Virus record (IMG/VR): IMGVR_UViG_3300034072_000110
Span: 1 to 42,959 of that record
DNA length: 42,959 nt
Source: a virus
Direction: 5' to 3' (one strand)
This document shows, piece after piece, positions 5,054 through 42,959 of this stretch; position 1 is the stretch's first letter, and each line of letters opens with the position of its first letter. The position numbers and the translations under genes were made by a program. Under the pieces are notes generated by a model that saw only the letters and a program-made list of their open reading frames with translations, did not search any database and had not been told where the DNA came from.

Positions 5054-5449
5054 ATGAAAGTCGAATTTGATCCTACCAACGCAGCGGAAGTAGCCGCCGT
5101 ACAGCGGCTTATTGGCGGGGCGGGCAGCACTGCCGCCGCACCGGCTGCGCACAATCCCGCCCCTGCACCAGCGCCCGCACCGGCCCCGGCTCACGCCGCA
5201 CCGGCCCCTGCGCCCGCTCCCGCCCCGGCACCTGCACCGGCACCAGCGCCCGCACCTGCCCCGGCCCCTGCGCCTGCACCTGCTGGCGGTGCAGTATCCC
5301 AAGCAGATTTTGCCGCCGCTGTCCAGAACTACGCCAAGGTCAACAGCCCGAAGGCTACCAAGGCGAAGTTCGCGGAGTTCGGATACACGAAGATCAGCGA
5401 CGTACCAGCCGAACGGTACGCCGAACTGCTTCCCCACTTCACGGCGTAA
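5054..5449 (+). CDS. protein with long Ala-Pro linker
   Basis: A 131-residue protein in three parts. The N-terminus is short and acidic-polar (MKVEFDPTNAAEVAAVQRLIGG). The centre, about residues 30-77, is nearly pure alternating Ala and Pro. The C-terminal domain of about 50 residues reads SQADFAAAVQNYAKVNSPKA and onwards, ending in ELLPHFTA. Ala-Pro repeats form stiff, extended linkers in enzymes and adaptors, so the two ends are probably separate binding modules. AGGAGA precedes the ATG. Sitting between the helicase and the nuclease, it may be an accessory factor for one of them; this is inference. The repeat DNA is listed separately. Confidence 0.7.
   Translation: MKVEFDPTNAAEVAAVQRLIGGAGSTAAAPAAHNPAPAPAPAPAPAHAAPAPAPAPAPAPAPAPAPAPAPAPAPAPAGGAVSQADFAAAVQNYAKVNSPKATKAKFAEFGYTKISDVPAERYAELLPHFTA
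5149..5283 (+). repeat. GC-rich GCNCCN repeat encoding Ala-Pro tract
   Basis: Imperfect hexanucleotide repeats (variants of GCACCN/GCCCCN) encode alternating Ala-Pro through the middle of the 5054-5449 gene. Third positions vary between units, so the amino-acid repeat is better conserved than the DNA. This points to selection on the linker, though unequal crossing-over could change its length. Confidence 0.8.
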
Positions 5450-5460
5450 GGGCAGCAACA

Positions 5461-6786
5461 ATGAGCGGGCACGCAGACAGACAACATCGTCGCTTCTCGC
5501 CGTCGCAGGCGGAACGTTTCACCGTATGCCACGGCAGCACGAACTTGCTGAAACGCGTGCCCGCTCGTCCTGATAGCGAGTACGCTATCGAGGGAACCAA
5601 AGCCCACGAAGTCCTTGACGCCGCGTTGGCCAACGGCATTCGTGATGCGAAGACAGCGCACCGCGACTACTCGTCGCTGTGTATGGAAGACTTGAACACA
5701 TTCGACAACATGTTCTACTTCGCCGTGAACATGGCCTTGAACTACGTGTACAGCATCCTTGACGAATACCCTGACGCCGTGCTGTTCAACGAGCGCTTCG
5801 TCAACCCGCCGTCCGAAGTCGCGCCCGGTGAGACAGGCGGCTACTGCGACATAGCGATATGGGTTCCAAGCCTCAAGACGTTGTTCATCATCGACTACAA
5901 GCATGGCGCGGGTATCGCTAAGGACGTGAAGGGCAACCCGCAGCCGATGCAATACGGCGCTGGTTTCCTGTACGAAGAAAACGCCGTGGTGCCCGTCGAG
6001 GAAGTGAACAGCGTTGTGCTGACGATCATACAGCCTCGTGCGTTCCACCCTGACGGCGCGATCCGTGAACACGAGCTTACACCGTACGAGCTATACGAGT
6101 ACATGTGCTGGCTTGACGACATGATCGCGGAGAACTTGAAGCCCGACGCGCCGCTCGTACCAGACGACAACGGCAAGACGATGGATCATTGCCGCTTCTG
6201 CGACGCGAATACCGTGTGCCCCGCCCGTGAGGCCAAGGCTTTGACAGCCGTGGGTTCGCAGTTCAAGACAGTCCAGATGGTGCGCAAGCCCGATCTACCC
6301 GACGTGAAGAACATCGATATCAACCGCTTGGCGCACATTCGCATGGCCGCGCCGATGCTGCGCAAGTTCCTAGACGACGTGGAAAACCATTGCTACGAAC
6401 TCGCCATGAGCGGGCACGCAGTACCCGGCGCAAAGCTGGTCGAGACGCAAGCGCGCCGCCAGTATTACGGCGACGAGGAAGAAGTAGCACAGAAAGCCGC
6501 TGCGCTCGCTGGTGTATCAGTGGACGAAGTGATGATGAAGAAGATCATGCCTATCACGCATCTTGAAAAGGTGATCGTTGAGGCATTCAAGAAACGTGTT
6601 GGACGTGGCAAGAAACAGCAAGCCGCAGCAGATGCGCGGCAAGCGTTTGCCTTCCTGACACTCAAGCAATCTTCCGGCAACCTCAAGCTGGTTGACGAAG
6701 ATGACCCGGCACCCGCCATCAACAGAGCAATAGACAGCTTCTCACAGATCGCAGGCGTGTTGCCACCACCCCAACAGGAAAGATAG
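5461..6786 (+). CDS. PD-(D/E)XK nuclease, RecB/Cas4-like (DUF2800)
   Basis: A 441-residue protein with the PD-(D/E)XK signature: GTKAHEVLD (His/Glu near 49-50), GGYCDIAIW (Asp130), LFIIDYKHGAG (Asp145, Lys147) and the QPMQYGAG motif. It also has four cysteines in the AddB/Cas4 arrangement, Cys23 far upstream and CRFCDANTVC (244, 247, 253). In that family these hold an iron-sulfur cluster tying the ends of the nuclease domain together. It is the DUF2800 type found in phage replication modules, usually beside a DUF2815 ssDNA-binding protein, as here. It probably trims DNA ends for recombination. The long C-terminal region (270-441) is helical and not recognised. Confidence 0.85.
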   Translation: MSGHADRQHRRFSPSQAERFTVCHGSTNLLKRVPARPDSEYAIEGTKAHEVLDAALANGIRDAKTAHRDYSSLCMEDLNTFDNMFYFAVNMALNYVYSILDEYPDAVLFNERFVNPPSEVAPGETGGYCDIAIWVPSLKTLFIIDYKHGAGIAKDVKGNPQPMQYGAGFLYEENAVVPVEEVNSVVLTIIQPRAFHPDGAIREHELTPYELYEYMCWLDDMIAENLKPDAPLVPDDNGKTMDHCRFCDANTVCPAREAKALTAVGSQFKTVQMVRKPDLPDVKNIDINRLAHIRMAAPMLRKFLDDVENHCYELAMSGHAVPGAKLVETQARRQYYGDEEEVAQKAAALAGVSVDEVMMKKIMPITHLEKVIVEAFKKRVGRGKKQQAAADARQAFAFLTLKQSSGNLKLVDEDDPAPAINRAIDSFSQIAGVLPPPQQER

Positions 6787-6789
6787 AAC

Positions 6790-7662
6790 ATGACCACGAC
6801 AGTAGTTAAAGACAGCATCGTAGGCGACAACTGGATTTACCAGACAGCACAGGCCGTACCTATCCAGCGCGTCATTGACGAGAAGACCGGGCAACCGACT
6901 GGCGACATTCTGACAGGCCCGGTTCGTCTCGCGTTCGACAACCTGTTCGAACTCCCGCCCGTCACGGCCACGATGACGAACCCGAAGTTCGGTGCGTCGT
7001 TGCTGTTCACCCCGTATGCGGACTTCTCCGTCCTGCACGAAGAATACTACGCAGTGTGCGCACGCGAGTTCCCCGAATATTGGGACGGTCAGCAGTACAG
7101 CGGGTTGCACTCGCCGTTCCGCGATCAGCGCGAGAAGATCAAGTTCGGCGGCTTCACCCCCGGCTGCTTGTTCATCACGTCCACCAGCAAGTTCAAGCCG
7201 CCTGTCGTTGACGTACGGTACAACCCTATCGTTGACAAGAGCAAGGTGTACCCCGGCGTGTGGGCGATCTGCGCTGTCAACGCGTACGCATACAAAGACC
7301 CGCGCAAGAAGGGCGTCGCGTTCGGGTTGCAGTCCGTCATGATTATTGGCGACGACACGAAGTTCGGCGGCGGTGCGCCCGATGCTGCTAAGGTCATGGC
7401 CGCAGCGAAGGGTATTGCTGCACCTATCGTACGGCCCGACGTTGCCCGTGGTATGCCGACGCAACAGCAGCCCGCCCCGGCAGCGGGTATCCCCGGCTAT
7501 ACGCAGCCGTCGCCCGCTCCTATGGGCGCTCCTGCCCCGGCTGGCGCACCTGTCATGCCGGGTAGCCCTGCACCAGCCGCAGCGCCCTACATGCCGCCGC
7601 AACCCGCCGCTGCCCCGCCGCTCGCAACGGGCGACGATGACGACATGTCGTTCATGAACTAA
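6790..7662 (+). CDS. single-stranded DNA-binding protein (DUF2815-type)
   Basis: A 290-residue protein. The N-terminal 200 residues resemble the phage DUF2815 ssDNA-binding family: the segments TGPVRLAFDNLFEL, FGASLLFTPY and VYPGVWAICAVNAYAY, followed by KKGVAFGLQSVMII. The rest is a flexible Pro/Ala/Gly/Gln-rich tail ending in the acidic tip GDDDDMSFMN. Acidic C-terminal tips are how many SSBs recruit partner enzymes. It should coat single-stranded DNA at the phage fork and interact with the nuclease or polymerase beside it. CAGGAAAG precedes the ATG, three bases after the nuclease gene. Confidence 0.85.
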   Translation: MTTTVVKDSIVGDNWIYQTAQAVPIQRVIDEKTGQPTGDILTGPVRLAFDNLFELPPVTATMTNPKFGASLLFTPYADFSVLHEEYYAVCAREFPEYWDGQQYSGLHSPFRDQREKIKFGGFTPGCLFITSTSKFKPPVVDVRYNPIVDKSKVYPGVWAICAVNAYAYKDPRKKGVAFGLQSVMIIGDDTKFGGGAPDAAKVMAAAKGIAAPIVRPDVARGMPTQQQPAPAAGIPGYTQPSPAPMGAPAPAGAPVMPGSPAPAAAPYMPPQPAAAPPLATGDDDDMSFMN

Positions 7663-17320: not shown

Positions 17321-19846
17321 TTAGCTCCCAAATGACGGGGCGCGGTCTGGCGTTCTCTGCCCCGGTGCCCACCAATACGAATTGCCCTTCTCGCTTTCCT
17401 GTTTACGCATATTACTTTGGCGTTTACGGTATGCGTTCGGGTCTGCGATTTCCTGCAATCTGTCAAATACCTGACGTTCGAGCGCTAGTCTAGCCCACCA
17501 AAGCGAAGTGCCGGGAGTGTAGCGCTTGGCCCACTCAACTGCCTTTGCGGCTGTACTGCTCTCGAACTCCTTGTCGCTAAGACTACCCACGGTGTCGGCC
17601 CACTGAAACACGTCGCCTAGTACAAGGTCCGTAGTGTCACCCAAAAAGCCGATCAGCGGTCCCGCTACTATGTCTTGCGGGCCGCGTCCAAACTCGTTGA
17701 TACCGGCAAACAGGAAGTCGCCATAGATGGACAACGCGCCACCAGACAGAAACGCCTTGCCGATAAACGCGGCGTTGTCCATGGGTAGGGGGTCGCGGCC
17801 ACGGGAAATCTCGCGCATCTGTGTACCAAGCGCGCCCACCATCGTCATAGCGGCACCAAGCCCTGCATAGAACGACAAGCGCCCCTTGACTGTACGAGCC
17901 GTCATGCCGAGCCGCCCGTAGATCATGGCGAACGACACGGGGAAGTTCTTGTACATGGCGAACGAATACAGCAACGCGCCGACGAGGGTATCAGGGCGTG
18001 TCGTATCCTTGAGCGTAACGGCACCTTCCACCGTAGCTTCCGGCACCATCTTGCGGCTTTCTTCGAAGATCATGCCTTGGAACTTGTTGTACAACGACTG
18101 ACGGTTCGGCATGTCGGTTTGCAGAATGTCGATAGGACGCATGAACGACACGTCTTTACGCGGCGTCCATGTACCGACGCCGTTGCGCATCGCGTCCCAC
18201 TCGTCGGCGGTAATGCCGTACCGTTCCATGACCTGTCTAAACGGAAGGTCTTGGAAGGCCGTACCCCGGCTTCGGTTCATAAGCCCCATGAACTCTGCCT
18301 GCACGGCCCAACGGGCGCTGCGCGTGTGCCCCGATAGCAGGGACAGACGCATGACGGCTTCCGAGACACGGCGGCTGATCTGCGGTCCCTGCGTCGCCAA
18401 GCCCGTGAAGCGCGTTTGTGCGTACGTGGACATGACAACCTCGTCCATGACGAAGCCGCTTTGTGTACTGATCTGCTTCATGAACGCCGGGTCTGACGCC
18501 AGCGTCTTGAGATAGTAGCCCACGCCGTCGAACAGCCCCATGTTGTTGAGCGCTCGTACAGCGGCGGTCTGCATGAAGTCGCCCGGTATGGCCAAGAATG
18601 ACGCGCTACCTAGCTGTGCAGCCGTGAGTATGTTTGACGTTCCGGTCACGAGGTTGCCCAACAGACTGTTTGGGTCCATCGGGTTGTCGCGCATGATCGT
18701 CTCGAACATCGGGTCGAACTTGTTCTTCAACACCGCTTCTGCGTCGGCCTGCGCTTTCGGCCCTTCCGCTGCTGCCTGCTTTCGCACGATGGCCGCAACG
18801 TTCATCTTCGTCATTTCGGGGTTCGGCCCGAACGTCTCGACAAGCGCGATACGGTGTGCCATGTCGTCAATGTGACGAATGAACACGTCGAACACGTTGC
18901 CATCACCGAACTGTTCGTGTATGTCCAACCACGACTGCGCGTCCTTGTAGTGCAAGAACCGATGGTTCTCTAGCATGTTGCCAACTGCGCGCCCGCGACC
19001 ACGGAACGCCTTGGCGTCGATCTTGTTGGCACCGTCCGACACAAGCGTATTGTACACCTGCTTTAACACGTCAAGCCGCTGTTCGGGGCGGATCATCGTA
19101 CCGTCAGGCCAGCGGGTATTGTTCCAATCGACAGCGTTCATATGGGCGTCAACCCACTTGCTTTCTCCGGCGCGCATGATCTTGACGGCGTTCTGTGACT
19201 GCGGAATGTAGCGGTCGAGACGACGCATGGAACCGCCCGCCTGATTGAACAGATCGACGGCGAGGTCTTGCACCTTTAACCACGCGTCGGCAAATTCCTT
19301 CGCCACCATGTCGCCGGTACGTTCGCCCTTGACTTCGCGTATCACGTTCGGCAAGTGTGCTTTGCCCTTCTGGCGTCCGAATGCCCCCTTGCCGATCTTA
19401 TCGATTACGTCACCGAAGATGGCGTATAGCTGCCCGCGCGTAAGCTCGCGCTGCGTGCTGTACGACAAGCCGCTAAAACGCGGATCGTCTTCGATAAGCG
19501 ACACTGCGGCGCGTGCAAGCGCGGTGCCCCTGCTACCCGGTTTGCCGTCCATAAGGAACGTCGAGGTCGTGACGTTCAACCCCTGCGCGATACGCTCGTT
19601 GTTCGCCGCTTGTACCGACAGCATCTTAGCGGTACGCTTGATACGTTCCTGCACTTCGCGCGTGATGTTGTCGAATGTGTCGCGCATGGCAAGCGTCGAG
19701 GCCGTAGTGCTGTCCATACCTTGCTGCTTGTAGCCTTCGACACGCGTCTCGAACGCGTTGGTTATCTCGTCAATGCGCGCCTTCTTGAACCCACGCTTTT
19801 GCAGGTTTTCGCGTACGCAGGTTACGAAGTCTTGCGGAGTGAACAT
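17321..19846 (-). CDS. large internal virion protein, 841 aa
   Basis: A long protein starting MFTPQDFVTCVRENLQKRGF, not matched to a named domain. It is mostly helical with a charged N-terminal half. It has several hydrophobic stretches in the C-terminal third (VGALLYSFAMYKNFPVSFA, FYAGLGAAMTMVGALG, FLSGGALSIYGDFLFAG). Position after two other large internal proteins and before the tailspike is that of T7 gp16-type ejection proteins, which enter the host envelope at infection and form a DNA channel. The hydrophobic segments suit membrane insertion. The 5' end overlaps the preceding gene by 25 bp. No transglycosylase motif is seen here, unlike T7 gp16. Confidence 0.75.
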   Translation of the reverse strand: MFTPQDFVTCVRENLQKRGFKKARIDEITNAFETRVEGYKQQGMDSTTASTLAMRDTFDNITREVQERIKRTAKMLSVQAANNERIAQGLNVTTSTFLMDGKPGSRGTALARAAVSLIEDDPRFSGLSYSTQRELTRGQLYAIFGDVIDKIGKGAFGRQKGKAHLPNVIREVKGERTGDMVAKEFADAWLKVQDLAVDLFNQAGGSMRRLDRYIPQSQNAVKIMRAGESKWVDAHMNAVDWNNTRWPDGTMIRPEQRLDVLKQVYNTLVSDGANKIDAKAFRGRGRAVGNMLENHRFLHYKDAQSWLDIHEQFGDGNVFDVFIRHIDDMAHRIALVETFGPNPEMTKMNVAAIVRKQAAAEGPKAQADAEAVLKNKFDPMFETIMRDNPMDPNSLLGNLVTGTSNILTAAQLGSASFLAIPGDFMQTAAVRALNNMGLFDGVGYYLKTLASDPAFMKQISTQSGFVMDEVVMSTYAQTRFTGLATQGPQISRRVSEAVMRLSLLSGHTRSARWAVQAEFMGLMNRSRGTAFQDLPFRQVMERYGITADEWDAMRNGVGTWTPRKDVSFMRPIDILQTDMPNRQSLYNKFQGMIFEESRKMVPEATVEGAVTLKDTTRPDTLVGALLYSFAMYKNFPVSFAMIYGRLGMTARTVKGRLSFYAGLGAAMTMVGALGTQMREISRGRDPLPMDNAAFIGKAFLSGGALSIYGDFLFAGINEFGRGPQDIVAGPLIGFLGDTTDLVLGDVFQWADTVGSLSDKEFESSTAAKAVEWAKRYTPGTSLWWARLALERQVFDRLQEIADPNAYRKRQSNMRKQESEKGNSYWWAPGQRTPDRAPSFGS

Positions 19847-35994: not shown

Positions 35995-36483
35995 ATGTCT
36001 TTGTCGTATGACTACTACCCCGCTGTTCTATACGCGCTTGGCGAGATTGGTCAAGGGCGCACGCTTACTGACGCGTGCGACCGCGCTAACATTACGGTGT
36101 CGGTGTTCGACTATCACGTCAAGAACAATCCCGAACTACAGACGATGTACGAGGAAGCGGTACAGCGTGGCAACGACGCCATGGCCGACGCGCTTGTCAA
36201 CATCGATAATCACAAGATACACGGACAGTCCGACGCCAAAATGGCCAAGGTCATATCCGACAATATCAAGTGGGTTCTCGGCAAGCGGGACAGCAAGCGC
36301 TTCGGTGAGAAGATCGAAGTCAAGCACGAAATCACTATGGACCGTGCTATCGTGTCGGCGCTCGAACACGCGCGTAACCGTGTACCGATGATCGACGCTG
36401 ACTACGAGCGCGTGATAGACGTAACCCCCGCAATGCTGTCGTACAACGAAGACGACGAGCTATTGCAGGAGTTACTTAGCTAG
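35995..36483 (+). CDS. terS: terminase small subunit
   Basis: A 162-residue protein starting MSLSYDYYPAVLYALGEIGQ. The N-terminus has a helix-turn-helix-like region (GRTLTDACDRANITVSVFDY). The middle carries the signature common to many phage small terminases, AKVISDNIKWVLGKRDSKRF, followed by GEKIEVKHE. It should recognise phage DNA and start packaging with the large subunit. AAAGAGG precedes the ATG. The gene is on the opposite strand to all its late neighbours: divergent from terL (39-bp gap) and convergent with the 36487 gene (3-bp gap). Confidence 0.85.
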   Translation: MSLSYDYYPAVLYALGEIGQGRTLTDACDRANITVSVFDYHVKNNPELQTMYEEAVQRGNDAMADALVNIDNHKIHGQSDAKMAKVISDNIKWVLGKRDSKRFGEKIEVKHEITMDRAIVSALEHARNRVPMIDADYERVIDVTPAMLSYNEDDELLQELLS

Positions 36484-37759: not shown

Positions 37760-37772
37760 CTGCTAGACGTGC

Positions 37773-37787
37773 TGGACATTGTGTCTA
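37773..37787. promoter_or_regulatory. 15-bp dyad site 5 (TGGACA TTG TGTCTA)
   Basis: Good member of the array, followed by ATC as in sites 7 and 8. It lies 13 bases to the right of the inverted repeat. Confidence 0.65.
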
Positions 37788-37821
37788 ATCGGCCATGATC
37801 GAGCGCGCTAGACCTGCTAGG

Positions 37822-37836
37822 TTGACACGTTGTCTA
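37822..37836. promoter_or_regulatory. 15-bp dyad site 6 (TTGACA CGT TGTCTA)
   Basis: Good member of the array. Immediately right of it, GTCCA-ATC-TGGAC (37838-37850) shows the half-sites in everted order, so this may be a composite site. Confidence 0.65.
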
Positions 37837-37991
37837 GTCCAATCTGGACAATCCGAGCGGTTCGAGCCGTCGCGCGTCGGGCTATGTGCGCACAACGGTA
37901 AAGAGGACGGAATGCGAATGGCAATTCGTCCAGTCCGTTCCAATTCGCCGCTATTTGTCCAACCCTGCCGATTGTTCCCTTTGTCGCCAAC

Positions 37992-38006
37992 TAGACACAG
38001 TGTCTA
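37992..38006. promoter_or_regulatory. 15-bp dyad site 7 (TAGACA CAG TGTCTA), perfect
   Basis: The arms are perfectly symmetric, and symmetry extends into the centre (GACACAGTGTC). With flanks it reads CTAGACA...TGTCTAATC. It is the best single copy for defining the consensus. Confidence 0.75.
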
Positions 38007-38055
38007 ATCAGCCCGAAACGGATTTTTCACCCTATCCATACACAAGGCCGCAAGG

Positions 38056-38077
38056 CTCTCCCCCTAAAGGGGGAGAG
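38056..38077. repeat. CTCCCCCTAAAGGG stem, right copy (9-bp stem)
   Basis: CTCTCCCCC and GGGGGAGAG pair perfectly around TAAA. The core is identical to the copy at 37302-37315. No T run follows on either strand, so a terminator role is doubtful; it may be a leader stem or binding site. Confidence 0.6.
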
Positions 38078-38159
38078 ACCTAGGCTGTCCAGTGTTAGGA
38101 TAGACATTTATGCGTCTAAACGGCTTGGCAGGTTTGCAACGCTTTTCACCACGTCCAGA

Positions 38160-38174
38160 TTGACACTCTGTCAA
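38160..38174. promoter_or_regulatory. 15-bp dyad site 8 (TTGACA CTC TGTCAA), perfect
   Basis: Perfect six-base arms around CTC, followed by ATC as in sites 5 and 7. It lies 168 bp from site 7. A looser relative with an eight-base centre (TAGAC...GTCTA) stands at 38101-38118. Confidence 0.75.
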
Positions 38175-38212
38175 ATCGTCAAATCCCTGCCATGATTGGC
38201 CGCTAGATCGAT

Positions 38213-38227
38213 TTGACACTATGTCCA
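38213..38227. promoter_or_regulatory. 15-bp dyad site 9 (TTGACA CTA TGTCCA)
   Basis: Good copy with one arm mismatch; a half-site TGGACA follows at 38250-38255. These are the sites closest to the rightward promoter. Confidence 0.65.
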
Positions 38228-38302
38228 GTTAGGTCTAGCGCGCTCGAATTGGACATTTTGCGCGTGTACGACAGAAAAAGCAGAAAAATCGCGTGTACCG
38301 TG

Positions 38303-38331
38303 TTGACAGCGTACGCAAAGCGCTTTACATG
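38303..38331 (+). promoter_or_regulatory. rightward promoter candidate
   Basis: A perfect -35 TTGACA, a 17-base spacer and TACATG (3/6) lie 35 bp before the first rightward gene. The -35 coincides with a half-site of the dyad array, so a regulator binding the array could also cover this promoter. Confidence 0.55.
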
Positions 38332-38343
38332 ATGCTTATCGAC

Positions 38344-38370
38344 AACGCCAAGAAAGGTTTAGACCATGGC
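38344..38370 (+). repeat. 27-bp leader repeat, partial third copy
   Basis: The last 27 bases of the 90-bp leader repeat, from AACGCCAAGAAAGG through ATGGC, occur here before the first rightward gene. The copy includes the ribosome site AAGAAAGG and the first codons, so three consecutive genes share the same translation start region. Confidence 0.9.
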
Positions 38371-38809
38371 AACGATCATTAAGACACAAAAGCAGGCTCG
38401 CAACGTCAAGCACGTTGACGGCGTGCAATTCCTTTGCGGCGATTGCGGGGAAGTCAAGCCGGTTAGCACTAACGGCGGCACGGGTTACGGCTATTTCGAG
38501 CGCACCGACAACGCCAAGCCGATTTGTTACGCATGTTGCGGCAAGCGCGAATTGGCTAGCATGATCGAAACAGGCAAGGCGACGCTTTACATGACGCTAA
38601 CCAAAGGCGCGTCGTACAATCATTGCACTGTGACAGATTGGCCCGGTACATTGAAGTTCAATGGCGCGTATAGCGTTGGACGCCACAACATAGCGGGCAA
38701 GCGGTACGACGTGGAATTTACCGGGCCGGACGGTTTCAAGTGGCATGGCGTCACGTACGGCGACAATACGCAAATCTGCCATTGCAAGCGCACAAAGCGC
38801 AAGGCTTAA
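38366..38809 (+). CDS. first early gene, zinc-finger-like protein
   Basis: A 147-residue protein starting MATIIKTQKQARNVKHVDGV. It contains two Cys pairs, CGDC (24/27) and CYAC with a neighbouring Cys (54/57/58), suitable for one zinc site, and a C-terminal CHCKRTKRK. The rest is beta-rich (YNHCTVTDWPGTLKFNGAYS, KRYDVEFTGPDGFKWHG). No known family is recognised. It is the first gene on the rightward arm, so it should be made earliest; early phage genes of this kind often redirect or block host functions, but nothing here shows which. Confidence 0.75.
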   Translation: MATIIKTQKQARNVKHVDGVQFLCGDCGEVKPVSTNGGTGYGYFERTDNAKPICYACCGKRELASMIETGKATLYMTLTKGASYNHCTVTDWPGTLKFNGAYSVGRHNIAGKRYDVEFTGPDGFKWHGVTYGDNTQICHCKRTKRKA

Positions 38810-38897
38810 CGAATTGTTTACCTGTTGCGCGCTATACGTGGCGCGCAACTAGCAAGCAATTCCGCTTGATAACGCCAAGAAAGGTTTAGACCATGGC
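38808..38897 (+). repeat. 90-bp direct repeat, copy 1 (leader of the 38893 gene)
   Basis: Identical over 90 bases to 39183-39272. It contains an imperfect-loop hairpin with a nine-base stem, GTTGCGCGC/GCGCGCAAC (loop TATACGTG), the ribosome site AAGAAAGG and the ATG of the next gene. The stop of the preceding gene overlaps its first bases. Confidence 0.95.
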
Positions 38898-39183
38898 AAA
38901 CAAATATGACGTTGAATACACAGACACGTTCGCGGGTGCAGCAAACTATTCGTGGGTTAAGCGCGCAATCGTCACCATGCCGGAATTGACACATTACGGA
39001 TATGACGGCGGCACCAATTACAGCAAGGCTAACCGCGTATTCGAGCGCGAACTAATGAAGCGCGCAAAGGCTGAAATGGGCTTGACAGGCGTACGCGGCA
39101 CGGTTGAGCGCTATGGCGACAGCATGACGTTTCGCCCGTATCGCTCTTGCACCGTCATGTTTATTTCATGGCGTGACGAATAA
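38893..39183 (+). CDS. hypothetical early protein, 96 aa
   Basis: Starts MANKYDVEYTDTFAGAANYS. A compact, basic protein with beta-like ends (WVKRAIVTMPELTHYGYD; RPYRSCTVMFISWRDE) and a central helix (KANRVFERELMKRAKAEMG). The short hydrophobic/basic pattern is common in small phage proteins, and I do not recognise a family. It is preceded by the 90-bp leader and followed by a second copy of it, so the gene plus leader behaves like a cassette. Confidence 0.72.
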   Translation: MANKYDVEYTDTFAGAANYSWVKRAIVTMPELTHYGYDGGTNYSKANRVFERELMKRAKAEMGLTGVRGTVERYGDSMTFRPYRSCTVMFISWRDE

Positions 39184-39272
39184 ACGAATTGTTTACCTGT
39201 TGCGCGCTATACGTGGCGCGCAACTAGCAAGCAATTCCGCTTGATAACGCCAAGAAAGGTTTAGACCATGGC
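39183..39272 (+). repeat. 90-bp direct repeat, copy 2 (leader of the 39268 gene)
   Basis: Exact second copy of 38808-38897, again starting at the stop of the gene before and ending in the second codon of the gene after. Perfect identity at this length suggests recent duplication or strong selection on the leader RNA. Confidence 0.95.
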
Positions 39273-39609
39273 TCGCACTGACAAGCTCTCGACGTACCGC
39301 ACCGCATGGGAACACGACGCCACGCGCGGTTCCGTCACGTACATTTCAACGCGCATTGTCGCACGGGACGGCGACGCTGTAACGCTCAATTCGGACGGCT
39401 GGCAGACTGTCACCACTAAGCGCAAAATGTGCCAAGCCGCTAATCAGTTTGGTTTGCGCTTTTGCGTGTACCAGAAAGCCGGGGAATGGTTCGTTGACGT
39501 ACGCAATCCGCGCGACGTGTTCGAGGCAACCGGCAATTACTGGCAAGGGCTGAAAATCCCATTCCGTGACGGTATGACGTTCGACATGTACACGGGCGAA
39601 TTGCTCTAA
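39268..39609 (+). CDS. hypothetical early protein, 113 aa
   Basis: Starts MARTDKLSTYRTAWEHDATR. It is beta-rich and fairly basic, with AANQFGLRFCVYQKAGEWFV and DVRNPRDVFEATGNYWQG; the last part (IPFRDGMTFDMYTGELL) ends in a beta strand. It is not recognised. Its start region is the second 90-bp leader copy. Its stop TAA overlaps the ATG of the small exported protein (TAATG), so these two are coupled. Confidence 0.72.
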   Translation: MARTDKLSTYRTAWEHDATRGSVTYISTRIVARDGDAVTLNSDGWQTVTTKRKMCQAANQFGLRFCVYQKAGEWFVDVRNPRDVFEATGNYWQGLKIPFRDGMTFDMYTGELL

Positions 39610-39752
39610 TGCGCGCCTTAACCGTCGCGCTATGGCTTGGCGTTCTAGTGGCGTGTATCGCGCCACTAGTGCTAGCCGCAAGCAACCATGACGCGCTGGA
39701 CAAATGCCAGCTAACCCATTCATTCGATACATGCGCAAGCGCGCTACGCTAG
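39609..39752 (+). CDS. small exported two-cysteine protein, 47 aa
   Basis: A 47-residue protein starting MRALTVALWLGVLVACIAPL. The N-terminus is a signal peptide: basic Arg, a hydrophobic core and a likely cut after VLAA/S at about residue 24. The mature part is only about 23 residues, with Cys33 and Cys42 in KCQLTHSFDTC, which could form one disulfide in the periplasm. Small phage proteins with this two-Cys tail are seen in other phages, but I know of no assigned function. The ATG overlaps the previous stop (TAATG). Its own TAG overlaps the next ribosome site. Confidence 0.7.
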   Translation: MRALTVALWLGVLVACIAPLVLAASNHDALDKCQLTHSFDTCASALR

Positions 39753-39765
39753 GAGAGAAGCCATG
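39751..39765 (+). promoter_or_regulatory. RBS module 1 (AGGAGAGAAGCC-ATG)
   Basis: First of six identical 15-base start modules (39751, 40033, 40289, 40509, 40756, 40958). In this copy the preceding TAG stop shares its AG with the module. Confidence 0.9.
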
Positions 39766-39981
39766 ACCGCACCAAAAGACTTGCACGAAACCGAAGCCGT
39801 TTACCGTACGCCAAGCGGCAAGCTAGCCTATTTCTCGAAAGTGCTAGCAGGCACGCCGGACGAGTGCAGCGACGAGATACAACGCCTGTTGCGCAACGAA
39901 CAACGCTTTGGGCGTCGCCGTGTCGGGCAATTCGTCGGCACTAACACGCGCCACATAGGCAAGCAAATTCAGACAAGCTAA
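39763..39981 (+). CDS. hypothetical early protein, 72 aa
   Basis: Starts MTAPKDLHETEAVYRTPSGK. It is a basic, polar protein with a possible helix (DECSDEIQRLLRNEQRFGRR) and a GQFVGTNTRHIGKQIQT tail. It is not recognised. It starts from the first copy of the AGGAGAGAAGCC module. The following 63-bp gap holds a GC-rich stretch rich in CGCG. Confidence 0.68.
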   Translation: MTAPKDLHETEAVYRTPSGKLAYFSKVLAGTPDECSDEIQRLLRNEQRFGRRRVGQFVGTNTRHIGKQIQTS

Positions 39982-40032
39982 CGGCTTATAGGCGTCGCGC
40001 GTGTCGCGGCGCTCGATAAACCGTTAGCACAT

Positions 40033-40047
40033 AGGAGAGAAGCCATG
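40033..40047 (+). promoter_or_regulatory. RBS module 2 (AGGAGAGAAGCC-ATG)
   Basis: Identical start module before the 40045 gene; here it is separated from the previous stop by about 50 bases, and TAG again precedes it out of the coding frame. Confidence 0.9.
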
Positions 40048-40290
40048 ATTTCGATTTGGAACAATTCGCGCAAAGTCATTGTGTCGCGCGACGGCGTGGC
40101 GGCGTTCAATCGCCGCTGGCCATGTAGCGAGCTACGCGACAGCCGCGCGTATTGGTTCGAGTTCGACAGCGACGGCGATTTGATCGATACCGACGTGCCG
40201 GAACAAGACGACGGCAGCGCCGCAACGGCCATGGCCGAAGATTGCAAGGCATTTTACTTTGACGGCATCATGCCCGAATGGGCCGAATAG
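40045..40290 (+). CDS. hypothetical early acidic protein, 81 aa
   Basis: Starts MISIWNNSRKVIVSRDGVAA. The first half is basic (FNRRWPCSELRDSRAYWFEF), and the second half is strongly acidic (DSDGDLIDTDVPEQDD). The acidic C-terminus resembles DNA-mimic or polymerase-binding inhibitors in broad composition only; no family is recognised. The TAG stop overlaps the next start module. Confidence 0.68.
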   Translation: MISIWNNSRKVIVSRDGVAAFNRRWPCSELRDSRAYWFEFDSDGDLIDTDVPEQDDGSAATAMAEDCKAFYFDGIMPEWAE

Positions 40291-40303
40291 GAGAGAAGCC
40301 ATG
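40289..40303 (+). promoter_or_regulatory. RBS module 3 (AGGAGAGAAGCC-ATG)
   Basis: Start module fused to the stop of the gene before (TAG shares AG), giving TAGGAGAGAAGCCATG. Confidence 0.9.
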
Positions 40304-40510
40304 AGAGACAGAACGCCGCGCCTTACACAAAAGGCAATGGATGAAATGGAACGCAAGTTCAAGCTGGAAGCGCGGGCTATGGAACTGCTCGCGCTTATCG
40401 CCGTCGAGTTCAAGTCGGACCCGGCAAGTGTACAGTGCTTTGATTTGCGGCTTGTACAAGAGGTAATCCAGATCGCAGACGAGTACCCGAAACTGCGACC
40501 GCTTTTCTAG
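40301..40510 (+). CDS. hypothetical early helical protein, 69 aa
   Basis: Starts MRDRTPRLTQKAMDEMERKF. It appears all-helical (KLEARAMELLALIAVEFKSD, RLVQEVIQIADEYPKLRPLF) and is not recognised. The module ATG at 40301 fixes the start; a longer in-frame ATG at 40259 overlaps the gene before and lacks a ribosome site. The stop again overlaps the next module. Confidence 0.68.
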   Translation: MRDRTPRLTQKAMDEMERKFKLEARAMELLALIAVEFKSDPASVQCFDLRLVQEVIQIADEYPKLRPLF

Positions 40511-40523
40511 GAGAGAAGCCATG
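40509..40523 (+). promoter_or_regulatory. RBS module 4 (AGGAGAGAAGCC-ATG)
   Basis: Fourth identical module, fused to the previous TAG. Confidence 0.9.
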
Positions 40524-40757
40524 ACGCGTACCGTGTACGTGATCTGCACTAGCGTCGAGGTAGCCGAAAAGCTAGCTCGGCGCATTATCGATGGAACCTT
40601 GCCCGTTTCGCATATCAGCGAGGCGGCTTGTCTGCTTTGGTGGGGGCTGTATCCTACCCCATTGAAGGCCAACCACCTGCCCTATGCCGTCACCCTTTCC
40701 ACGGGCGGGGAAATCGAGGCGACTAGACGGATCGCCGCACCACAACTAGCCAGCTAG
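40521..40757 (+). CDS. hypothetical early protein, 78 aa
   Basis: Starts MTRTVYVICTSVEVAEKLAR. The opening is strand-helix (RTVYVICTSVEVAEKLARRI) and a Trp-rich patch (CLLWWGLYPTP) follows. The last part reads AVTLSTGGEIEATRRIAAP. This could be a small alpha/beta fold. Function unknown. It ends on the TAG that forms part of module 5. Confidence 0.68.
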   Translation: MTRTVYVICTSVEVAEKLARRIIDGTLPVSHISEAACLLWWGLYPTPLKANHLPYAVTLSTGGEIEATRRIAAPQLAS

Positions 40758-40770
40758 GAGAGAAGCCATG
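40756..40770 (+). promoter_or_regulatory. RBS module 5 (AGGAGAGAAGCC-ATG)
   Basis: Fifth identical module, fused to the previous TAG. Confidence 0.9.
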
Positions 40771-40986
40771 CGTGCGATCTTCTACAGCGACGCGCACATG
40801 CGCCACCTGCTGAAAGACGGAAAGCCGAGATACACCAACGTACAACAGAACAGTTTTGGCGATCAGATTTACGGTTCGTCGCACGCGTCGAGGGAAACGG
40901 CGCGTGTTGCGTATTTCAAGCAGTTTCCCGTACTGTACCGCATCGTCGTAAAACCAAAGGAGAGAAGCCATGAAGATAGAGACTGA
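40768..40986 (+). CDS. hypothetical early protein, 72 aa
   Basis: Starts MRAIFYSDAHMRHLLKDGKP. It is a basic small protein with YTNVQQNSFGDQIYGSSHAS and ARVAYFKQFPVLYRIVVKPK, unrecognised. Its 3' end reads through the next start module (encoding KERSHEDRD), so it overlaps the following gene by 17 bases instead of stopping at TAG as the other cassettes do. Confidence 0.65.
   Translation: MRAIFYSDAHMRHLLKDGKPRYTNVQQNSFGDQIYGSSHASRETARVAYFKQFPVLYRIVVKPKERSHEDRD
40958..40972 (+). promoter_or_regulatory. RBS module 6 (AGGAGAGAAGCC-ATG)
   Basis: Sixth identical module; it lies inside the coding sequence of the preceding gene, with AAAGG before it. Confidence 0.9.
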
Positions 40987-41194
40987 TATTGAAATGCCGG
41001 GAACCGCACCAGCGGTCAAACAGGAACCCACATACGAGCGGTTCTTGTGCCTCAACGGCGAGTTCGAGGGGCGCGGCCTGATCGTACCAATGCCCGCAAC
41101 GTACGCATGGGGCTACGATCTGCTGAAACTCAAGGACGGAACGCACGTCGCCGTCCAGAAAGAACCCGTGGCCGCACCGGACTTGACAGCCTGA
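40970..41194 (+). CDS. hypothetical early protein, 74 aa
   Basis: Starts MKIETDIEMPGTAPAVKQEP. The middle (FLCLNGEFEGRGLIVPMPA) and TYAWGYDLLKLKDGTHVAVQ suggest a small beta fold. It is not recognised. It is the last gene of the cassette run. A 129-bp gap with a promoter candidate follows. Confidence 0.68.
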   Translation: MKIETDIEMPGTAPAVKQEPTYERFLCLNGEFEGRGLIVPMPATYAWGYDLLKLKDGTHVAVQKEPVAAPDLTA

Positions 41195-41252
41195 AACACA
41201 GCGCGTACGAAAGGCGTGCTAAGGCCAATCGGCCTAGTTGACAAGAAACCAT

Positions 41253-41281
41253 TTGACAGCTAATCAGGGACCGTGCATAAC
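41253..41281 (+). promoter_or_regulatory. sigma70-like promoter before the 41324 gene
   Basis: TTGACA, 17 bases, CATAAC (4/6) lies in the gap 41195-41323, about 43 bp before the ATG. Another TTGACA at 41238-41243 has no good -10. This could start a second rightward transcript for the middle genes. Confidence 0.6.
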
Positions 41282-41323
41282 AAGTTTATCGCACTACCCG
41301 CAACCTAAGAGAAAGTGAATACC

Positions 41324-41749
41324 ATGGCAAACGCACCTGCCCCCAAGGCCAAGACCACCGAAGCCGCTCCCGCTGCTGCTGCCGCACCGGCAACCGAAAC
41401 CACGGCGTCGAGCGCCTTCAAGATCGAAACCGGCTTCGAAGTCCCGGCACGCACCACGTTTGGCGGTGGCGGCAAGTCGCCTGAATACCCGTTCGGTGAA
41501 ATGCCGGTCGGCGCATCGTTCCTCGTCGGCGTCACCGTGCCCGACACGATCAAGGACGAAGCCGAGCGCGCCAAGGCGTTCAAGGAAGAAGCCCGCAAGG
41601 CGTCGAACCGTATCAGCGGTGCGATCCGTCGCTTCCGCAAGCAGAACGCCGGAATGGACTTCGCTATCCGCACCGTCAACGACGACAAGATGGGCCGTGG
41701 CGTCCGCGTGTGGCGCGTCGAGCCGGAAGCTGCCAGCGCCGCCGAGTAA
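41324..41749 (+). CDS. conserved alanine-rich phage protein, 141 aa
   Basis: Starts MANAPAPKAKTTEAAPAAAA. An Ala/Thr/Pro-rich flexible start of about 35 residues precedes a folded domain: FKIETGFEVPARTTFGGGGK, YPFGEMPVGASFLVGVTVP, then the basic helix ASNRISGAIRRFRKQNAGM and FAIRTVNDDKMGRGVRVWRV. The domain is of a type I recognise from other phage early regions without assigned function; the Arg-rich helix followed by strands could bind nucleic acid. The ATG at 41324 has AGAGAAAG upstream, and GTG 41315 is an alternative. Its codon use is strongly biased to C-ending codons compared with the early cassettes, suggesting high expression. Confidence 0.75.
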   Translation: MANAPAPKAKTTEAAPAAAAAPATETTASSAFKIETGFEVPARTTFGGGGKSPEYPFGEMPVGASFLVGVTVPDTIKDEAERAKAFKEEARKASNRISGAIRRFRKQNAGMDFAIRTVNDDKMGRGVRVWRVEPEAASAAE

Positions 41750-41766
41750 TCGGCTGCGTTTAGCAG

Positions 41767-41804
41767 ATAGCCCGTGTAGCAATTCCTCCCGCTACACGGG
41801 CTAT
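41767..41804. terminator. 14-bp stem hairpin after the 41324 gene
   Basis: ATAGCCCGTGTAGC and GCTACACGGGCTAT form a perfect 14-bp stem with a ten-base loop, 17 bases after the stop at 41749. No T run follows in either direction (next bases TCACTAAC), so it may end or stabilise the upstream mRNA instead of being a classical terminator. Confidence 0.65.
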
Positions 41805-41834
41805 TCACTAACCGCAGTACACCGGAGCGCGCCA

Positions 41835-42959
41835 ATGTACATCAACGAACTGATCGGTGACAAAGCCGATATCATCGAACAGGCCATGGGCAACCCCGGC
41901 CTCGCACCCAAGCGCAAACCCACCATCGAACAGGCTATGAAGGCTGTCGCGTCGCAGGTCGAGTTTGCCGCCATGCAGAACGTCCAGCAAAAGGTTCTGC
42001 CGATCATTCAAGACATGTACGACATGTACGTACTCATGAACGGCGAGTACGAAGACGTTGGCATGTTGAACGAAGCCGACGCAGCGGTCACGGAACCCGA
42101 CGAGGATTTCGTCAACGCATCGCGCACCGAGTACAGCAGCGGGCTTGACGACGAACTGGAAAAGGTTCTCGAACCGTTCGAGGCGTTGCTGTCCGCAGAT
42201 TGGCTTGGCCGCAACACCATCGATACGCGGTTGTGGGAAGAAAACGCAATCGTCAAGCTGTCGCAGAGCGTAGCGAAAGAAGTGTTCAAGCAGCTTTCGT
42301 ACCAGAAGACGCCCGCGCAAGTCCTTTCCAACGCCGGTATCGTGCAGGCCGACGTGGAAATCTTCTTTGAACAGCACCTTGCACAAGCTGAAACCCCGAA
42401 AGGAAAGCAAGCCATGTCCGACGCTACCGCAACCAGCGCCGAAGACCTTGCGGCCAAGATCAAGTCGCATGTCGGCAACGACTTCGATCAGATGACCGTG
42501 TACGACGATCTATCGCTCGCACTGGACGACGACGAAATTCTCGCCAATGGCGCGGGCAAGCGTCTCGGCCTTGACGAGAACGACGTACAGGCGTTGCAGA
42601 TGGTCGGCCTCGAATACGGCGAGGATACCGCCGATCACCTGATCGAGCTTATCGGCAACGCGTCGAGCGGCGAGAAGGCAGCGAAGCCCAAGGCCGAACG
42701 CAAGCCAGCCGCACCGAAGACGCAGACCGCAGCGCCCGCAGAAGGCGCGGTGGACCCGAAGGTGCTGGTTCTCATGAAGAACCACGGCAGCACCAAGGAC
42801 ACCGAAATGTCCGCGACGCTTGGCGTATCGCGCGCCACGTACAACAACTGGCTCAACGGGAAAAACGCTTTTGCGCCCGATGGCGACCAGTACAGCGCTG
42901 TACGCGACGAACTCGTGCGCAACATCAACGGCTTGCTCGAAGCGCTCGCAACGCTCGAC
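41835..42959 (+). CDS. 375-aa protein with C-terminal helix-turn-helix, runs across the window end
   Basis: Open from ATG 41835 to the last base; its TAA stop is bases 1-3 of the window. It encodes 375 residues starting MYINELIGDKADIIEQAMGN. The first 200 residues are acidic and helical (MQNVQQKVLPIIQDMYDMYV; LDDELEKVLEPFEALLSADW). The middle is an acidic region and then a Lys/Pro/Ala linker (GEKAAKPKAERKPAAPKTQT). The C-terminus has TKDTEMSATLGVSRATYNNW, a helix-turn-helix-like pattern, and LNGKNAF. A DNA-binding regulator or replication accessory is likely. No family name is recognised. Confidence 0.75.
   Translation, partial: MYINELIGDKADIIEQAMGNPGLAPKRKPTIEQAMKAVASQVEFAAMQNVQQKVLPIIQDMYDMYVLMNGEYEDVGMLNEADAAVTEPDEDFVNASRTEYSSGLDDELEKVLEPFEALLSADWLGRNTIDTRLWEENAIVKLSQSVAKEVFKQLSYQKTPAQVLSNAGIVQADVEIFFEQHLAQAETPKGKQAMSDATATSAEDLAAKIKSHVGNDFDQMTVYDDLSLALDDDEILANGAGKRLGLDENDVQALQMVGLEYGEDTADHLIELIGNASSGEKAAKPKAERKPAAPKTQTAAPAEGAVDPKVLVLMKNHGSTKDTEMSATLGVSRATYNNWLNGKNAFAPDGDQYSAVRDELVRNINGLLEALATLD

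Follow-up and report, generated by a model that had tools for sequence, protein, structure and literature searches.

The stretch of DNA analysed here (the window, 42,959 bases) encodes a T7-type head-tail connector, a capsid protein, an Sf6-type small terminase, a family A DNA polymerase and a primase-helicase. From this set the virus is taken to be a podovirus, and we take the window to be a member of an uncultured podovirus lineage. Its large terminase is at best about 38% identical to those of named phages, namely epsilon15-type phages, and 49-93% identical to those of 39 IMG/VR loci; since a comparison of window 1-24000 with named phages also gave no near DNA match, no named phage was usable as a swap partner. 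One relative (L187) spans both window ends, its positions 209-1854 matching window 41250-42959 and its sequence from 2222 onward matching window 422 onward, which indicates that the ends are contiguous and puts the gene array described below between the replication genes and the side of the terminase. The genome of this record is probably permuted or closed into a circle, with an arbitrary cut.

The array is punctuated by a 15-nt module, AGGAGAGAAGCCATG, present in six exact copies, all on the + strand, at 39751, 40033, 40289, 40509, 40756 and 40958 (span 39751-40972). The module is composed of the Shine-Dalgarno (SD) sequence AGGAG, the spacer AGAAGCC and the start codon ATG, and every copy is the start of a different ORF of 69-81 aa. 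A TAG lies directly before five of the six copies and, at 39751, 40289, 40509 and 40756, terminates the ORF upstream; in front of the copy at 40033 the upstream ORF ends earlier, at 39981, with a strong hairpin in the spacer, and the copy at 40958 overlaps the preceding ORF by 17 nt. Exact searching and ORF prediction thus agree with the preliminary description, which had reported six identical copies each starting a different small gene and a fused TAG in four cases. At two to three mismatches the module occurs in two more places in the window, both on the - strand. The eight matches with up to three mismatches compare with a mean of 0.48 and a maximum of 3 in 100 dinucleotide shuffles, and a chance origin of the six copies was rejected by this test. 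At E 0.05 the six module-led proteins match neither PHROGs nor Pfam families, and 12 other array loci contain no homologue of them. The features considered are listed below.

1623-2198, +: predicted RuvC-like Holliday junction resolvase, possible recombination machinery
5461-7662, +: predicted exonuclease (phrog_69, PD-(D/E)XK) and gp2.5-like ssDNA-binding/annealing protein
35995-36483, +: conserved left-flank gene, Sf6-type small terminase
38344-38372, +: 29-bp partial copy of the 90-bp unit (AACGCCAAGAAAGGTTTAGACCATGGCAA); start of ORF 38366-38809
38808-38897, +: 90-bp leader copy 1, with hairpin (38811-38862), SD and ATGG; starts ORF 38893-39183; fold z -4.53
38893-39183, +: ORF, 96 aa, phrog_22729, function not known; similar gene in giant Caulobacter phages
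39183-39272, +: 90-bp leader copy 2, with hairpin (39186-39237); starts ORF 39268-39609; fold z -4.67
39268-39609, +: ORF, 113 aa, phrog_554 / Kyano_Gp96-like, function not known
39751-39765, +: module copy 1, fused to the TAG stop of ORF 39609-39752
39763-39981, +: module-led ORF, 72 aa, no family
39977-40028, +: two-tier hairpin leader, from the preceding stop region to 4 nt before the module; fold z -4.75
40033-40047, +: module copy 2, leader type
40045-40290, +: module-led ORF, 81 aa, no family
40289-40303, +: module copy 3, stop fused
40301-40510, +: module-led ORF, 69 aa, no family
40509-40523, +: module copy 4, stop fused
40521-40757, +: module-led ORF, 78 aa, no family
40756-40770, +: module copy 5, stop fused
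40768-40986, +: module-led ORF, 72 aa, no family
40958-40972, +: module copy 6, within the end of the preceding ORF
40970-41194, +: module-led ORF, 74 aa, no family
41324-41749, +: conserved right-flank gene, phrog_7597; the homologue in relatives can itself be module-led
41835-42959, +: conserved right-flank gene, 375 aa up to the window end; weak C-terminal HTH match

The 90-bp unit is a second repeated element, whose two full copies are 100% identical and extend from the preceding stop codon to ATGGC before two unrelated ORFs. The gene at 38889-39166 is the sole gene within 38000-42959 with DNA similarity (71-78%) to named phages, including giant Caulobacter phages, in several of which its homologue sits in a terminal repeat; our reading is that this similarity points to horizontal spread of a single gene. 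Upstream of the array, an imperfect inverted repeat (GACA...TGTC) occurs three times within window 37772-38181, and in the matching region of relatives TTGCACACTGTG or a single-base variant is repeated; these repeats are possibly operators or early promoters.

Leader hairpins and module variants in relatives

Stop-to-ATG gaps of about 60-90 nt often fold into a long two-tier hairpin that ends just before the SD. Among 18 folded leaders, chosen because a hairpin was already visible and leaving out hairpin-free ones (such as G034 3798 and G023 4816), 17 gave z <= -2.49 and one -1.72; two tight spacers folded as controls gave +0.24 and +0.46. The relative G021 carries six such leaders before six genes, the TGA of the previous gene forming the first part of the leader at 2178, 3445 and 4261. 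Aligned by a hand rule, these paralogous leaders have both-side changes at outer pairs 6 and 7 and at several inner pairs, a compensatory count that leans towards pairing because the minimum-energy fold of each single leader supplied its inner pairs, and one broken outer pair among seven outer positions in six copies; copy 3 (L167:2173) gave no outer stem when folded alone. The compensatory stem changes in G021 support the predicted RNA pairing. An alignment of 13 leaders of mixed origin (MAFFT and RNAalifold) recovered the inner stem alone, because the outer stems were misaligned, with both-side changes at four of nine consensus pairs. No leader matched an Rfam family at gathering score, the only matches being two tRNAs in relatives.

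Two relatives that are 98% identical over 6.4 kb offer a further observation: between L182:4599-4651 and L183:3731-3786 the inner stems differ and the outer stem is kept, the difference lying in a diverged patch that ends at the 3' foot of the hairpin. Both phages also carry a tRNA-Met gene (anticodon CAT) between leader hairpin and module (L182:4660-4734, L183:3796-3870), which G040 lacks.

Relatives were obtained via the terminase, an alignment of flank proteins and a second alignment. A search with the right-flank protein alone confirmed no relative, and none came from a scan of bacterial and archaeal genomes, from the concatenated proteins of the window array as a query, or from a peptide scan of viral contigs with the six window module-led proteins. 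Near-identical records (G038/G041, G018/G039 and L179/L180/G034) were entered once wherever phages were counted. Four or more module copies or variants on one strand (up to three mismatches) were found in 10 of 41 records, the set searched being mostly terminase relatives and including many fragments that do not reach the array; with two near-identical pairs, these 10 represent about eight phages. A reversed control pattern gave at most three matches in any of the 41. L182 has eight copies and L183 three. L126, with a terminase 93% identical to the window's, breaks off short of the array.

The genes flanking the array are conserved among relatives, in some of which both right-flank genes are module-led. 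The module exists in lineage variants beginning with AGGATAGAA, AGGACAGAA or AGGAGAGAAGAC, placed before small genes that are mostly not shared, and variants go with genomes: AGGATAGAAACC in G037 and G016, AGGACAGAAGCC in G034 and AGGAGAGAAGAC in G021. In a set of 65 modules, picked by likeness to the window module and including close relatives, modules differ at 1.36 of 12 positions within genomes against 1.75 between genomes, a contrast that none of 1000 label permutations reached. As to the genes behind them, 33 of 64 module-led ORFs (at least 40 aa, 13 loci), including all six of the window, are without a homologue in the other loci, and the others are chiefly conserved flank genes or genes common to close pairs.

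In the right-flank ORF 41835-42959 an internal in-frame Met at window 42414 is invariant in all eight aligned homologues. About seven of the eight contexts have an SD-like sequence ahead of this codon, that of G040 being the module variant AGGAAAGAAACCATG, and the Met may serve as a nested start yielding a short isoform. G040 and G004 (loci L034 and L129) come from one sample, and the end of G004 and the start of G040 both lie in a gene rich in CSYC/CSDC-like repeats, so that the two may be adjacent pieces of one genome.

Gene exchange at module borders

The searches brought up no relative of the six genes in the window itself, so that swapping is seen in relatives only; the sharpest evidence for it comes from three fragments (G004, G005 and L182). 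G004 and G005 are 87-93% identical on both sides of a replaced gene, the homology reaching the ATG at 5171 and restarting at the first module base, 5510. It stops again four bases past the module at 6931, from where G004 continues with a gene beginning MTVTIHK and G005 with one beginning MTAYQYR. At this second junction, L182 has a leader and a module with T at the fifth base, as do G004 and G005, followed by a gene beginning MFFDK; the three genes are unrelated, the three leaders are 87-95% identical, and the gene before the module, beginning MTNEKF, is common to all three (71-74% identical). The homologue of the MFFDK gene in G004 (MFFDT, 78% of bases) is located one gene further on, behind another, leaderless module whose fifth base is G. 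With T at this base in L182, the crossover falls between the fifth base and the first codon, a distance of 10 bases. At the first junction, the MTNEKF gene of L182 sits behind a leader and a G-type module that in G004 belong to MTKFYVIG, and its own module in G004 and G005 is of the T type, which places a second crossover within 12 bases. Two crossovers thus map inside the module; each could instead be a point mutation of the fifth base, but the leaders of 42-55 nt fit the recombinant reading.

Over seven pairs of relatives, 10 of 24 homology edges lie within 5 nt of a module (uniform random placement: mean 2.2, maximum 8 in 2000) and 13 at any SD plus start (random mean 3.4, maximum 9). Edges recur between pairs and collapse to 14 non-redundant boundaries, six of them at SD plus start. 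The remaining boundaries are at stop codons or inside hairpin leaders (for example L182/L183 at 3428 and G040/L182 at 876), apart from two in or near coding sequence; that of G034/G023 is 25 nt inside a gene. Judged by eye, some 12 of the 14 fall in the interval from a stop codon to the start that follows it. G040 and L182 also differ by four gene-sized indels in a module-free stretch to the right of the array, one of them ending in a shared GGCGTGATG, and modules are therefore not required for gene indels.

Exchange is, on these alignments, concentrated at modules, yet not confined to them, and recombinants that survive when broken between genes would also give part of the breakpoint pattern. 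The preliminary description had proposed a cassette array built by recombination at the module, and as a check on it had asked whether genes are swapped, lost or gained precisely at module borders between related phages. The alignments bear this out in part: in the relatives, genes have been gained, lost or exchanged at module borders, and two crossovers are placed inside the module; such borders are not the exclusive sites, given that only six of 14 boundaries are at SD plus start and that indels occur where no module is present.

Comparison with known systems and interpretation

In an integron, small unrelated genes stand in a row with a uniform element between neighbours, and a tyrosine recombinase recombines attC sites as folded single strands. 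The array described here resembles it in the arrangement of its genes and the uniform element between them, a likeness that had been suggested from the outset; it does not extend to the machinery. The one record searched, that of the window, gave no match to the tyrosine recombinase family PF00589 (positive control 14 of 14), and the integron reading was rejected on this ground; the Rfam scan at gathering score brought up no attC-type site either. The predicted exonuclease, annealing protein and RuvC-like resolvase suggest that ordinary short-homology recombination would suffice for the exchange.

In T7-type phages, early mRNA is processed by RNase III cleavage at hairpins; for the leaders here a two-tier fold is predicted. 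The boundary sequences proposed for phage mosaicism, which reportedly go back to work on lambdoid phages, provide a parallel: the junctions of mosaic segments in the relatives fall in shared sequence, though not exclusively. They differ in that one module is repeated here at successive genes, with crossovers localised inside it. In the available text of PMC3029335, such sequences are cited as short conserved gene-border sequences serving as sites of homologous exchange.

Intergenic hairpin units in a shuffled gene region are also shared with the promoter-stem-loop (PeSL) cassettes of T4-type phages. These cassettes (Arbiol 2010, Comeau 2014) are said to place an early sigma-70 promoter beside a terminator-like stem-loop. 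The unit described here ends instead in an SD and a start codon, and no promoter or terminator signal above chance was found in a consensus scan of the window. According to the part of PMC4503421 available, PeSL hairpins lie in intensely shuffled regions and mediate gene exchange.

The start-associated sequences (SAS/ESAS) of cluster K are short, identical, non-palindromic sequences that include an AGGAG SD and mark where many nonstructural genes from different families start; all point the same way, and about half of them have a long inverted repeat upstream (available text of PMC3203893 and PMC12699233). The window repeats likewise lie at start codons in one orientation in the nonstructural part of the genome, with an inverted repeat directly upstream of some copies (that at 40033 of the six, and both 90-bp leaders). 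The sequences are unlike: the 13-bp SAS GGGATAGGAGCCC, with up to two deviations allowed, has one two-mismatch match in the window, at 18509 in the structural region, where 0.43 are expected. Further differences are that many copies here are fused to the previous stop codon, that the inverted repeats here change in a compensatory manner whereas Pope et al., in the text available, found little support for RNA pairing, and that module-bounded gene exchange is seen here in relatives and none is reported for SAS in the accessible parts of PMC3203893 and PMC12699233. For the 17-bp repeats of cluster O mycobacteriophages, gene gains and losses were explained by recombination between short, often intergenic copies, as would apply here; those repeats are inverted repeats, about one third of them in coding sequence, and are not linked to starts (PMC4351075, as far as its available text goes). 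The system thus resembles the SAS/ESAS of cluster K and the lambdoid boundary sequences. A limited literature search, too narrow to claim absence, surfaced no paper joining these features.

We consider it likely that the module is a translation start of the accessory-gene region that doubles as a homologous-recombination junction. A different account, which we think improbable, is that selection for one strong translation start acts alone and that genes turn over by random illegitimate recombination, with only intergenic breaks surviving. The SD of the module is indeed a good one and well spaced, single exact copies are common in viral contigs (at least 119 stretches), and gene indels also occur at boundaries that carry no module. 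Such selection would not, however, explain why the spacer AGAAGCC is identical six times although no pairing with the anti-SD region of 16S rRNA is expected for it, nor why at each of the two junctions a gene follows the leader and module of a different gene. Moreover, among the 80 loci listed of the at least 119, those with more than one copy (L028, L034 and L061) all possess flank genes known from this phage family. That the leader hairpins are intrinsic terminators or carriers of early promoters, as in PeSL cassettes, is less probable still: a strong hairpin positioned from stop to start in a shuffled gene region would suit such a role, but the window holds four terminator-like sites against 5.8 expected, none on a leader hairpin, and three promoter-like sites against 2.7 in a sigma-70 consensus scan, and terminators and promoters in leaders were rejected on these counts.

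Control of translation is exerted in phage T4 by the RegA protein. An analogous regulon, in which the module, the hairpin or both are the site for a phage RNA-binding protein or a small RNA and exchange is a by-product, is compatible with a recombination junction and seems to us possible but rather doubtful. Conserved bases beyond the SD, lineage-specific variants that are alike within genomes and the two-tier hairpin with its compensatory changes all favour it, as does the mention of a possible host- or phage-encoded binding partner by the SAS authors (PMC3203893, available text); against it are the tight modules, which in the fold controls have no hairpin, and the lack of any candidate regulator.

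Under the recombination-junction reading, the six 15-mers would be one translation-initiation module reused in the accessory region between terminase and replication genes. Joining is either tight, the previous stop codon being fused to or overlapping the module, or by a leader of 60-90 nt from the previous stop codon, whose long two-tier RNA hairpin directly precedes the SD. This punctuation varies so little between genes, and between phages, that it provides short stretches of homology for crossovers, which may be of sufficient length for recombination of the annealing type. A crossover at the module would insert, delete or replace one gene and retain the upstream stop and a working ribosome site, the exchange presumably being carried out by the phage's own exonuclease, annealing protein and resolvase. 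The region would be expressed early, and the hairpin may insulate or process the polycistronic mRNA in an RNase III-like manner. By analogy with the relatives, the same process would have built the window's array, where identical modules and leaders before unrelated genes are as expected if exchange occurred there too. We further suggest, quite tentatively, that stop, covarying hairpin, SD and start form a socket, homogenised within each genome, that makes any ORF translatable via mRNA processing and steers exchange without a dedicated recombinase, so that accessory genes are traded singly.

Start-associated repeats (SAS/ESAS), gene gain and loss at short repeats (cluster O) and the boundary-sequence proposal were already known from the sources cited, to the extent of their available text. 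The present lineage displays a plain repeated boundary sequence with a plain second role, that of a ribosome site, in which crossovers can be placed by diagnostic bases. The boundary-sequence question thereby becomes directly testable by phage crosses and by more genomes of one lineage, and the leader of stop, hairpin, SD and start would represent a compact design that makes any gene readable wherever it is inserted.
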